Origin: Parvularcula dongshanensis
GTDB lineage: Bacteria; Pseudomonadota; Alphaproteobacteria; Caulobacterales; Parvularculaceae
Direction: 5' to 3'
Assembly (NCBI RefSeq): GCF_014199615.1
Contig: NZ_JACHOB010000001.1
Span: 868,001-932,000 of the forward strand
Length of the DNA: 64,000 bases
The notes beneath the pieces are model-generated. The model searched no databases and was not told the origin of the DNA. It saw only the letters and a program-made list of their open reading frames with translations. Made by a program: the position numbers and the translations under genes. Of this stretch, positions 7,849 to 11,349 are shown piece after piece; positions within the stretch are counted from its first letter, which is position 1; every line of letters begins with the position of its first letter.

Positions 7849-10071
7849 ATGCCCGCCGCGCAGGCCTTTCTCGACATCGCCGGTGCGCCCGAGCCGAAGG
7901 TTCGGGTCAAGGTCCTGCTGCCCCTGCCGGCGGGGAATGGCTACGACTACGCCGTGCCCGACGGCATGATCGTCGGCCCCGGCGACTTCGTCGTGGTGCC
8001 CTTGGGGCCGCGCAAGGTGATCGGCGTCGCCTGGGGCGACGAGGCCGATGGCAGCGTGCCGGACGCGAAGTTGAAGGAGGTCGTCGGCGTCCTGGACGCC
8101 CCGCCCTTGAGCGCGGACGTGCGCGACTTCGTCGACTGGGTCGCGGCCTACTGCGTCTCGCCGCGCGGCGTCGTCCTGCGCCTCGTCATGCGGTCGGGCA
8201 GCGCGCTCGAGAAGGCGCGGGGCAAGTCGGCCTTCGTGCCGGCGGAGAGCCCGCCCCTGGAACTGAAGCTCACCGAGAAGCGGCGCGCGGTCCTCAAGGC
8301 CGCCCGTCCCGGCCGTCCGATGACGGCGGCGCAGCTCGCGAAGCGCGCGGGCGTGACGGAGGCGGTGGTGCGCGGCCTCGCGCAGGCCGGCGCGCTCAGG
8401 GTCGTCGAACTCGATCCCGACCCGGCCTTCGATCCGCCGGACCCCGACCTTCCAGGCCGTGCGCTGTCGGACGACCAGGCGGCGGCGGTGCGGGCGTTGT
8501 CTCAGAAGGTCCGCGCGAGTGGTTTCTCCGCGACGCTGCTCGACGGGGTGACGGGGTCGGGCAAGACCGAGGTCTACCTTGAGGCCGTCGCCGAAGCGCT
8601 GCGCGCGGACGAGGGCGCGCAGGTTCTCGTCCTCCTGCCCGAGATCGCGCTCACCCTGCCCTTTCTCGAACGCATCGAAGCGCGCTTCGGCGCGCCCGCC
8701 GCCGCCTGGCACTCCGGCATGACGTCGGCCGCGCGGCGGCGGGTGTGGAAGCGGGTCGCGGACGGCGGCGCGCGGCTCGTCGTCGGCGCGCGCTCCGCGC
8801 TCTTCCTTCCTTACACGAACCTCAAGCTGATCGTCGTCGACGAGGAGCACGAGGCCGCCTACAAGCAGCATGACGGCGTCCTCTACCACGCGCGCGACAT
8901 GGCCGTGGCGCGGGGCGCGCGGCAAGGCTTCCCCGTGGTCCTCGCGTCCGCGACGCCGAGCCTCGAGACCCTCGCCAACGTGGAGGAGGGCCGGTACGGC
9001 CGCGTCGAGCTTCCTTCCCGCTTCGGCCCCGCCGAGCTGCCCGACACGCAAGTCGTCGACATGCGTGCCAGCCCGCCCGACAAGCAGCGCTGGCTCTCCC
9101 CGCCCATCGTCGAGCGCACGACGGAGGTCCTGCGCCGCGGCGAGCAGGTCATGCTCTACCTCAACCGCCGCGGCTACGCGCCGGTGGTCCTGTGCCGAAA
9201 GTGCGGGGAGCGCATGTGCGCGCCCGACAGCGACACCTGGCTCGTCGAGCATCGGTACACGAACCGCCTCGTCTGCCACCACACGGGCTTCTCCATGCCG
9301 AAGCCCGAGGCGTGCCCCCATTGCGGGGCGCATGACAGCCTCTCGCCCTGTGGCCCTGGCGTCGAGCGCGTGGCGGAGGAGGCGCAAGAGCGCTGGCCGG
9401 ACGCACGGGTCGAGATCTTCAGCTCAGACACGGTCCAGCACGCAGGCGCGGCGCGGTCGCTCCTTGAACGGATGACAGCCGGCGAGATCGACATCCTCGT
9501 CGCGACGCAAGCCGCCGCGAAGGGGCACAACTTCCCCGGCCTCACCCTCGTCGCGGCGGTCGACGCGGACCTCGGACTCGCAGGCGGCGACCTGCGCGCG
9601 GCGGAGCGGACCTATCAGGTGCTCTCCCAGGTCTCGGGGCGCGCCGGCCGGGCGGAGAAGCCGGGCTCGGTCATGCTGCAGTCCTACCAGCCCGAGCACC
9701 CGGTCATCCGCGCGCTCGCGGGCCAGGACCGCGACGGCTTCCTCGCGGCGGAGCTCGACGGGCGGCGAAGCCTGGGCTTCCCCCCCTACGGCCGCCTCGC
9801 GGCCCTCGTCCTCTCCGGCGAGAACGAGGCCAAGCTGATGGAGACGGCACAGACCTTGGTGCAGGCCGTCCCGCACGCCGACGGCGTCGAGGTCTGGGGC
9901 CCGGCGCCCGCGCCGCTCTATCGCCTGCGAGGCACCTACCGCGTCCGCTTCCTCGTCAAGACGGCGCGCCGCGTCAGCGTGCAGAACGTGCTCGGCGCGT
10001 GGCTGTCGCGGGTGAAGCTGCCGAGTAGCGTGCGGTGCACGGTGGACGTGGACCCTTACAACTTCAGCTGA
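7849..10071 (+). CDS. priA: Primosomal protein N' (replication restart helicase PriA)
   Basis: A 740-residue superfamily 2 helicase that recognises stalled forks and reloads the replicative helicase. Walker A is GVTGSGKTEVYLEA, the DExH box is VVDEEHEAAYK, and the zinc-binding insert has paired cysteines in VLCRKCGERMC, LVCHH and CPHCGAHDSLSPC. The C-terminus VKLPSSVRCTVDVDPYNF is typical of the family. ATG 7849 has AAGGAG at 7-base spacing. It stands alone, with a candidate LexA box just upstream. Confidence 0.96.
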   Translation: MPAAQAFLDIAGAPEPKVRVKVLLPLPAGNGYDYAVPDGMIVGPGDFVVVPLGPRKVIGVAWGDEADGSVPDAKLKEVVGVLDAPPLSADVRDFVDWVAAYCVSPRGVVLRLVMRSGSALEKARGKSAFVPAESPPLELKLTEKRRAVLKAARPGRPMTAAQLAKRAGVTEAVVRGLAQAGALRVVELDPDPAFDPPDPDLPGRALSDDQAAAVRALSQKVRASGFSATLLDGVTGSGKTEVYLEAVAEALRADEGAQVLVLLPEIALTLPFLERIEARFGAPAAAWHSGMTSAARRRVWKRVADGGARLVVGARSALFLPYTNLKLIVVDEEHEAAYKQHDGVLYHARDMAVARGARQGFPVVLASATPSLETLANVEEGRYGRVELPSRFGPAELPDTQVVDMRASPPDKQRWLSPPIVERTTEVLRRGEQVMLYLNRRGYAPVVLCRKCGERMCAPDSDTWLVEHRYTNRLVCHHTGFSMPKPEACPHCGAHDSLSPCGPGVERVAEEAQERWPDARVEIFSSDTVQHAGAARSLLERMTAGEIDILVATQAAAKGHNFPGLTLVAAVDADLGLAGGDLRAAERTYQVLSQVSGRAGRAEKPGSVMLQSYQPEHPVIRALAGQDRDGFLAAELDGRRSLGFPPYGRLAALVLSGENEAKLMETAQTLVQAVPHADGVEVWGPAPAPLYRLRGTYRVRFLVKTARRVSVQNVLGAWLSRVKLPSSVRCTVDVDPYNFS

Positions 10072-10172
10072 GGTTCGCGGCATTCAGTCCTTGGCGAACT
10101 GTCAGCGCAACACGGGTCAGCCGCGAGCTAGGCGCGAAGGAGAAGGAACCAACAGCGACAGGCCGCCTGAAC

Positions 10173-10187
10173 TTCCTTATAAGGGAA
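10173..10187. repeat. CCTTATAAGG palindrome, copy 1
   Basis: The core CCTTATAAGG is at 10175-10184, flanked by TT and GAA so that the near-perfect palindrome covers 15 bases. It lies 73 bases before the preferred GTG start of the SeqA-like gene and 54 bases, centre to centre, before copy 2, about five helical turns. AT-rich palindromes of this kind stand out in this GC-rich region. An operator or recombination site is possible. Confidence 0.7.
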
Positions 10188-10226
10188 AGATTGACTGCAA
10201 ACAGCTAGGCAGCCATGATGAATTCG

Positions 10227-10240
10227 CGCCTTATAAGGGA
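10227..10240. repeat. CCTTATAAGG palindrome, copy 2, overlapping the ribosome binding site
   Basis: The core CCTTATAAGG is at 10229-10238. Its right half, AAGGGA (10235-10240), sits 7 bases before GTG 10248 and so would itself serve as the Shine-Dalgarno sequence of the next gene. Binding of a protein here, or pairing within the RNA palindrome, could block translation or transcription. Confidence 0.65.
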
Positions 10241-10247
10241 AGGTGGA

Positions 10248-10820
10248 GTGCCACGGTTCAGCGTAGCGTACGTCCGGCTAGGGGAGCTTGCTCGCCGACT
10301 CGAAGCGGCTGGCTTCGAGGATCCGGCTTTGATGATAGAGAGCGACCGCCTCCTCGTTGGACGGTCTCCAGGGCATCCCACGCACGTCTTCGACCCAGCG
10401 ACTGACCGGCTGTCCGCGCTGTCGGGCCGAAGCGAGGCGCCGCCCGACTTCGCCGCGAAGCGCGATGAGGCTCTCGCAGCCCGGCGTACGGGGGTCTACG
10501 CGGTCGACGTATTAGGGGACGCTCGCAGCTACCCCAACCTCAAAGCGCTCCTCATCGGAACGCTGCGCAGGCTCGCCGACAGGGACCCGGACTTCCTAGA
10601 CCGGTTGCAGGGGGAGAGGGGGCGGACGCGGGGCCTCGTCGCGCGTTCGAAGATCGACCTCTTCGACAAGGCGCACCTCGCTGAGAAGCACGCCGCGCCG
10701 CTAGACGGCGAGTGGTGGGTGAACACCAACAACTCGAAGGATCAGGTCAAGCGATGGCTGGGCGTCATGGCCCGCGTCGCGGGGCTCGAACTCGGTCGAG
10801 ACCTTCGCTGGAGCTTCTAG
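10248..10820 (+). CDS. Unknown protein with SeqA-like C-terminal pattern
   Basis: A 190-residue protein with no confident family. Its last 90 residues follow the order of motifs known from the C-terminal domain of SeqA: a Leu-rich helix (LKALLIGTLRRL), GRTR, a variable stretch, then WWVNTNNSKDQVKRWLGVM, corresponding to the WV-TN-x5-K-x7-M pattern with which SeqA grips hemimethylated DNA. SeqA itself is known from gammaproteobacteria, so this is a resemblance by eye. The SeqA ribbon-helix-helix N-terminus is not seen. GTG 10248 is preferred over ATG 10215 because AAGGGA lies at good spacing. The gene is bracketed by three palindromes. Confidence 0.6.
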   Translation: MPRFSVAYVRLGELARRLEAAGFEDPALMIESDRLLVGRSPGHPTHVFDPATDRLSALSGRSEAPPDFAAKRDEALAARRTGVYAVDVLGDARSYPNLKALLIGTLRRLADRDPDFLDRLQGERGRTRGLVARSKIDLFDKAHLAEKHAAPLDGEWWVNTNNSKDQVKRWLGVMARVAGLELGRDLRWSF

Positions 10821-10868
10821 ACGGCTTCTAGCTGAGGGGATCGATCGAACCGGTCTAGCGAGGAAGCG

Positions 10869-10882
10869 TCCCTTATAAGGGA
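10869..10882. repeat. CCTTATAAGG palindrome, copy 3 (perfect 14-base form)
   Basis: TCCCTTATAAGGGA at 10869-10882 is a perfect 14-base palindrome, 48 bases after the stop of the SeqA-like gene and 68 bases before the end of the convergent GFA gene. With copies 1 and 2 it brackets the gene, sharing the 12-base word CCTTATAAGGGA in all three. Confidence 0.7.
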
Positions 10883-10950
10883 TTAAGGTCGCTGCCTTCC
10901 ACGACGTGGGAAGCCTCGACGGTTTGTGGTGACAAGGGGGTAGCCGAACC

Positions 10951-11349
10951 CTAGCCATCCCCCGCCGCCCGCGGCGCGTCCCCGCCGATCTGGTAGGCAT
11001 CGCCCTTGTCGGCCGTAAAGATGTGCAGGTCCACGGAGAGGCCGGTCGGCTGGTCGAGCGCGCCGATCGCCACCGCGACGTGGGGCGCGGCCTCGTCGAT
11101 CTGCCGCCAGAAGAGGCTCGCGCCGCAGATGACGCAGAAGCCGCGCTCGGCGCGCTCGGAGGAGGGGTACCAGGCGAGGCTTTCCGCGCCGTGCTCGATC
11201 ACCAAAGCATCTTGGGGCACGCTGACCGAGGACCAGTAGGTCCCCGACCAGCGCTGGCACTGCGTGCAGTGACAGGCCGTCACGCGGCCGGTCTCGCCTT
11301 CGATCCGGAAGCGGACGTCGCCGCAGAGGCAGCCGCCAGCCTTACTCAC
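10951..11349 (-). CDS. GFA-family (CENP-V type) zinc protein
   Basis: A 132-residue protein of the glutathione-dependent formaldehyde-activating enzyme fold. The zinc ligands are visible as GGCLCGDVRF, ACHCTQCQRW and FCVICGASLF. Members are often called S-(hydroxymethyl)glutathione synthases, but for most the substrate is not proven. Start GTG 11349 overlaps the stop of the upstream SDR gene by 4 bases (GTGA), so both are translated as one unit. Confidence 0.85.
   Translation of the reverse strand: MSKAGGCLCGDVRFRIEGETGRVTACHCTQCQRWSGTYWSSVSVPQDALVIEHGAESLAWYPSSERAERGFCVICGASLFWRQIDEAAPHVAVAIGALDQPTGLSVDLHIFTADKGDAYQIGGDAPRAAGDG

Follow-up and report, generated by a model that had tools for sequence, protein, structure and literature searches.

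A distant SeqA homologue in Alphaproteobacteria that probably represses its own gene through a conserved palindromic operator

A 64,000-nt stretch of the Parvularcula dongshanensis genome (hereafter the window) carries a gene whose 190-aa product is predicted to have a C-terminal domain with the fold of SeqA. It is likely, judging from sequence comparison and structural models, that this protein is a distant SeqA homologue and acts as a sequence-specific autorepressor via CCTTATAAGG operators in its own promoter. The parts of this reading differ in strength. Homology to SeqA, as judged from the models, and the conservation of the operator with the gene family, as judged from the sequences, are both well supported. 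In addition, we infer that this protein binds the palindrome, that the C-domain does the reading, that binding represses the gene and that methylation is not needed. The features of the locus, in window coordinates, are as follows.

10072 to 11347, no strand: segment missing from four genomes of the same genus, holding the SeqA-like gene and the GFA gene
10175 to 10184, no strand: putative operator O1, CCTTATAAGG, in extended form CTTCCTTATAAGGGAAAG, just 5' of the predicted -35 box
10191 to 10219, plus strand: predicted sigma-70-type promoter, TTGACT-17-CATGAT, the sole one in 10050-10960 (1 found against 0.1 expected)
10229 to 10238, no strand: putative operator O2, CCTTATAAGG, at the predicted start of transcription, next to a Shine-Dalgarno-like sequence
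10248 to 10820, plus strand: gene for the 190-aa protein of predicted SeqA fold, GTG start, from the open reading frame and fold prediction
10248 to 10487, plus strand: N-terminal region, residues 1-80, a predicted helix and beta hairpins in the place of the SeqA_N-like N-terminus of relatives
10506 to 10817, plus strand: SeqA C-terminal-like domain, predicted to bind DNA, residues 87-190 (1lrr_A, Z 10.3, rmsd 2.5, 101 residues aligned, 14% identity)
10620 to 10631, plus strand: GRTR, residues 125-128, aligned with SeqA G115-R118
10713 to 10736, plus strand: recognition-loop motif WWVNTNNS, residues 156-163, in which N161 corresponds to SeqA N150 and S163 to SeqA N152
10871 to 10880, no strand: third palindrome O3, CCTTATAAGG, 51 bp 3' of the stop codon, between convergent genes

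The gene sits in the gap between two open reading frames which we take, from a reading of their products, to be priA (7849-10071) and a GFA-type gene on the minus strand (10951-11349). The Shine-Dalgarno-like sequence GGGAAGG lies ahead of the GTG at 10248 and is adjoined by O2. An in-frame ATG at 10215 offers an alternative start, and the GTG is favoured because the operator precedes the start codon in relatives.

Evidence for homology to SeqA comes from profiles and from predicted structure. The sole Pfam match of the window protein is to the SeqA C-domain PF03925 (E 0.015, 15.8 bits against a cut-off of 25.5), which reaches E 6e-4 on the Marinicaulis relative, and the NCBIfam SeqA model NF008389 gives 14.1 against a cut-off of 185. 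Because these scores fall under the Pfam and NCBIfam cut-offs, the protein is classed as a distant homologue and not as SeqA itself. Alignment of the family with a profile of five SeqA sequences using hhalign gave a probability of 95.8% and E 8e-9 in a single comparison, and a search of the PDB with the family profile returned two matches in all, both of them SeqA chains, weak at E 0.17-0.25. An AlphaFold2 model built on a 12-sequence family alignment has a mean pLDDT of 88 and about 95 in the C-terminal half; AlphaFold alignments for the family are small (11-12 sequences), and AlphaFold has already seen SeqA. Foldseek searches of the PDB with the window model placed SeqA chains at ranks 1-5 (probability 0.77-1.0, best E 7e-3). 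VIA-align gave SeqA Z scores of 9.3-10.3 over 96-101 aligned residues, against Z 4.3 for the next unrelated chain, and the best match, with the values given in the feature list, was 1lrr_A, SeqA with hemimethylated DNA. Among the folds listed, none other than SeqA exceeded Z 4.3. The original prediction of a SeqA-like C-terminal half is upheld by the agreement of Foldseek, VIA, hhalign and Pfam, and the motif order that it described, GRTR followed by WWVNTN, matches that of the SeqA C-terminal domain. For the N-terminal region, comparison with known folds gave weak DsbC/kelch-type matches, the best being the DsbC N-domain at Z 4.3. The SeqA_N oligomerisation domain is absent from the window protein, whose N-terminus differs.

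Escherichia coli SeqA contacts GATC via R116, T117, R118, N150 and N152 (PMC6225831). In the family alignment, the RTR or an R-x-R/K run is mostly kept and the Asn at the SeqA N150 position is invariant, and the N152 position holds a Ser that is invariant across the family of the window protein. Identity to SeqA is 14-17%. The predicted fold and the residue placement are common to the family and SeqA, but the specificity probably differs, because the equivalent of N152 is Ser while the other contact positions are largely kept.

The search for relatives covered 100 related genomes at the protein level, the order and the class with profiles and, by scanning, 84,980 species genomes. The order-level search was positive in 14 of 398 genomes and the class-level search in 4 of 385, the window genome included; in two other class-level positives the frame is 375-378 aa long, and one of these was read as a restriction-type fusion. 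The scan of species genomes yielded 17 loci. Relatives occur in Maricaulis, Marinicauda, Marinicaulis, a Caulobacter MAG and Sphingomonas cavernae, and C-terminal domains were also found in other bacteria. Two layouts can be distinguished, one with a SeqA_N-like N-terminus (Maricaulis, Marinicauda and Sphingomonas) and one with a different N-terminal domain (the window genome, Marinicaulis and the Caulobacter MAG). The Pfam cut-off for SeqA_N (PF17206) is exceeded by the S. cavernae protein, whose model can be aligned with full-length SeqA (3fmt) over 171 columns. A review states that there is no SeqA homolog in Alphaproteobacteria; by their sequences, the relatives with a SeqA_N-like N-terminus carry the entire SeqA layout in this class. 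Three Maricaulis proteins are 84-90% identical to one another, and C-domains of the main groups share 23-45% identity. The family had no match in PADLOC, and PHROGs returned weak matches of two relatives to families of unknown function and nothing else.

Outside this set, the C-domain is also found joined to an HSDR_N domain (PF04313) in proteins of about 370 aa from gammaproteobacterial and marine MAGs (L071, L073, L079 and L082), which constitute a possible family of methyl- or sequence-reading restriction enzymes. As to chromosomal context, the relative directly adjoins dapE in both Marinicauda salina (L018) and Maricaulis alexandrii (L019); dapD is its neighbour in the former, with a few genes between them in the latter. 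Unlike in these two loci, the Marinicaulis relative follows glyQ.

The window has three exact copies of CCTTATAAGG, at 10175, 10229 and 10871, against 0.00 expected from shuffles. The first two are spaced 54 bp apart, and CCTTATAAGGGA is a longer form common to all three. This exact-word count bears out the earlier description of three palindromes bracketing the 190-codon gene, and a genome-wide search indicates that they are not scattered: the whole 3.13 Mb genome holds four copies of CCTTATAAGG, and the single one outside the locus lies on another contig, inside an unrelated ORF that codes for a secreted-enzyme-like product. The 8-base core CTTATAAG has seven copies in the window genome, of which three are at the SeqA-like gene.

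The palindrome was first noticed upstream of relatives in six loci, and it then proved to be present upstream in nine further loci. In 15 representative loci, a count that leaves out L075, L081 and L088 as cut at contig ends or fragmentary, CTTATAAG lies upstream of the start codon as an exact copy in 12 and with at most one mismatch in all 15. It ranks first in an unbiased 8-mer count from -200 to +30 of these representatives, and random windows of the same 15 loci give an expectation of 0.00 exact copies. The sites have been kept across a divergence, 23-45% C-domain identity, that would have erased neutral promoter sequence. The consensus operator approximates AAWTCCTTATAAGGAWTT, and sites are often paired or tripled with a spacing of 10-54 bp, while at some loci there is just one site, or none better than a one-mismatch copy. 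CTTATAAG was found upstream of none of the four HSDR_N fusions (0/4), no palindrome was seen at L033, a weak, C-domain-only member of the order, and no downstream palindrome like O3 was seen in the relatives scanned.

Genome-wide, exact copies of CTTATAAG (those at the gene in brackets) number 3 (2) in G038, 3 (2) in G114, 4 (2) in G099 and 3 (2) in G073, and two Marinicaulis genomes are richer, with 23 and 12 copies. In all listed carriers except the window genome, the core is less frequent than its reversed control. Because it is rarer than that control in most carriers, a large regulon of exact sites is not indicated, and because they are rare elsewhere in most carriers, exact sites would serve mainly their own gene. 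Two regions away from the family genes are worth recording. One is in M. alexandrii (G099), where a recN-like and a ligA-like gene are separated by a gap that contains a perfect CCTTATAAGG (L054:2265-2274). In Maricaulis maris (G150; L044:3519-3680) and in its sister genome G103 (L045:3780-3940), three CTTATAAG copies lie in a non-coding region 3' of an oxoprolinase-like gene, spaced by 19-20 and 130-131 bp and followed by a long inverted repeat, in a similar arrangement in both genomes. From its sequence, this three-palindrome region is a candidate second target. Rfam had no match either there or at the window locus.

The predicted promoter of the window gene lies between O1 and O2; O1 directly precedes the -35 box, and O2 is located where transcription is expected to start. 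Operator centres in most relatives fall either on the -10 box, near -11, or close to the predicted start, between about -2 and +9, promoters being consensus-matching predictions and not mapped starts. Operators on the -10 box or at the start are the usual layout of autorepressors. The conservation of TATAAG could partly reflect its use as a -10 box. The same rare palindrome is present in the promoter of nearly every relative, so the most likely mode of control is that the protein binds this palindrome at its own gene and does not read GATC methylation. Autoregulation had been proposed for the gene from the window alone, and the retention of the palindrome upstream of relatives as divergent as those described above now gives it strong support at the level of sequence. 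The SeqA-like C-domain is the probable reader, because the palindrome accompanies proteins with differing N-termini that share only this domain. In the proposed mechanism, the predicted SeqA-fold C-domain would recognise CCTTATAAGG (core CTTATAAG, loosely AAWTCCTTATAAGGAWTT) as a DNA sequence. Either a dimer or a pair of linked C-domains would bind the two operators, one 5' of the -35 box and the other at the transcription start, and the bound protein would block RNA polymerase at its own promoter. Such autorepression would keep the level of the protein low, and beyond its own gene the targets would be few or of weaker sequence.

Among the alternatives, the one that survives best, which we nevertheless consider unlikely, is a methylation reader whose target after replication would be hemimethylated CTTATAAG (methylated at A) or GATC/GANTC, and which would couple its own expression, perhaps replication as well, to the fork. 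The predicted SeqA fold, the two-domain SeqA layout of relatives with a SeqA_N-like N-terminus, the invariant Asn aligned with SeqA N150 and the presence of adenines on both strands of the operator are all consistent with it, and so is the frequent pairing of sites, as E. coli SeqA binds GATC pairs up to 31 bp apart (PMC6225831). However, the 200 bp preceding the window gene contain neither GATC nor GANTC, as is also the case at several other loci. A Dam-type methylase (PF02086) was not found in the window genome; among the 13 carriers searched, 10, the window genome included, have none and three have any, G038 being marginal. Because GATC/GANTC is missing upstream and a PF02086 methylase is missing from the genome, SeqA-type reading of hemimethylated GATC at the window gene is unlikely. 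The replacement of SeqA N152 by Ser also argues against methylation reading, and the exact operator is too rare for a genome-wide mark. A related proposal, to which we assign a lower probability, is an alphaproteobacterial sequestration protein that would sense methylation or hemimethylation of CTTATAAG or of another site in CcrM bacteria and couple its autoregulated level to replication.

Less probable again is the binding of CTTATAAG by a different transcription factor, which would control the gene while the SeqA-like protein itself does not bind the palindrome. An association in sequence does not prove which protein binds. Nevertheless, in Maricaulis, Marinicaulis, Caulobacter and Sphingomonas alike the site accompanies the gene, whose chromosomal positions are unrelated, and these genomes have few copies in other places; together, this is the pattern expected of self-binding.

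The original prediction had also allowed for a mobile cassette bounded by the palindromes, which is now very improbable. Comparison of the priA-GFA junction sustained one part of this idea, as the segment is indeed present or absent between strains: in four genomes of the same genus, priA directly adjoins a short-chain-dehydrogenase gene, where the window has 1.28 kb extra. The SeqA-like gene has a lower GC3 (0.80) than priA and the GFA gene (0.92), the distribution over 14 of 398 genomes of the order is patchy, and a protein search of nine other genomes of the genus found no relative. The gene itself was probably gained horizontally, as these sequence features suggest. However, the empty-site alignment (L041) places query 1800 at window 10071 and query 1804 at window 11348, and the cassette reading is disfavoured because the palindromes, at 10175 and 10871, do not mark these borders. 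Moreover, palindromes of relatives lie upstream, in promoters at unrelated positions, and lack a downstream copy in the loci seen; the segment contains no recombinase gene, and no relatives were found in plasmid, phage or viral contig collections. Least credible of all is a role of the palindrome in the mRNA, through Shine-Dalgarno or translational control, or as merely a shared -10 box: O2 does abut a Shine-Dalgarno-like sequence and TATAAG often lies on the predicted -10 box, but a 10-base palindrome without a loop makes no useful hairpin, O1 in the window lies 5' of the -35 box, other loci have tandem copies 10-30 bp apart, the full CCTTATAAGG symmetry is kept and Rfam gives no match.

The autorepressor reading can be compared with three known systems. 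Methylation-linked regulation in Alphaproteobacteria is represented by GcrA and CcrM, the latter acting at GANTC (PMC10073500). They belong to the same class of bacteria as the window gene, whose promoter region, in contrast, is without GANTC. With SeqA of E. coli and Vibrio cholerae (C-domain PF03925, N-domain PF17206), the family shares the predicted C-domain fold at Z of about 10, the GRTR and W-x-x-T-N motifs with the invariant Asn at the N150 position, the two-domain order in several relatives with a SeqA_N-like N-terminus, and sites that are often paired. In contrast to these similarities, its identity to SeqA is only 14-17%, it has Ser in place of N152 and it falls short of the Pfam and NCBIfam cut-offs. 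In the window protein the N-terminal domain is a different one, the genome is without a Dam-type methylase, and the family has a conserved CTTATAAG operator without GATC, a patchy distribution in Alphaproteobacteria and chromosomal neighbours other than pgm. At least two orders of Alphaproteobacteria have predicted SeqA-fold proteins, some with the whole SeqA layout, each of them associated with a defined palindrome. Should the domain be able to read unmethylated CTTATAAG, the SeqA fold would be a more general sequence reader, of which the reading of hemimethylated GATC is one specialisation. The HSDR_N (PF04313) fusions have a homologous C-domain (tblastn E 1e-12 to 8e-5) with the motif GW[WY].G.NLS, whereas theirs is joined to a restriction-type nuclease domain and has no CTTATAAG upstream; presumably they use it for the selection of cleavage targets and not for autoregulation. 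The occurrence of the same domain on restriction-type nucleases elsewhere suggests a wider family, from which SeqA may have arisen.
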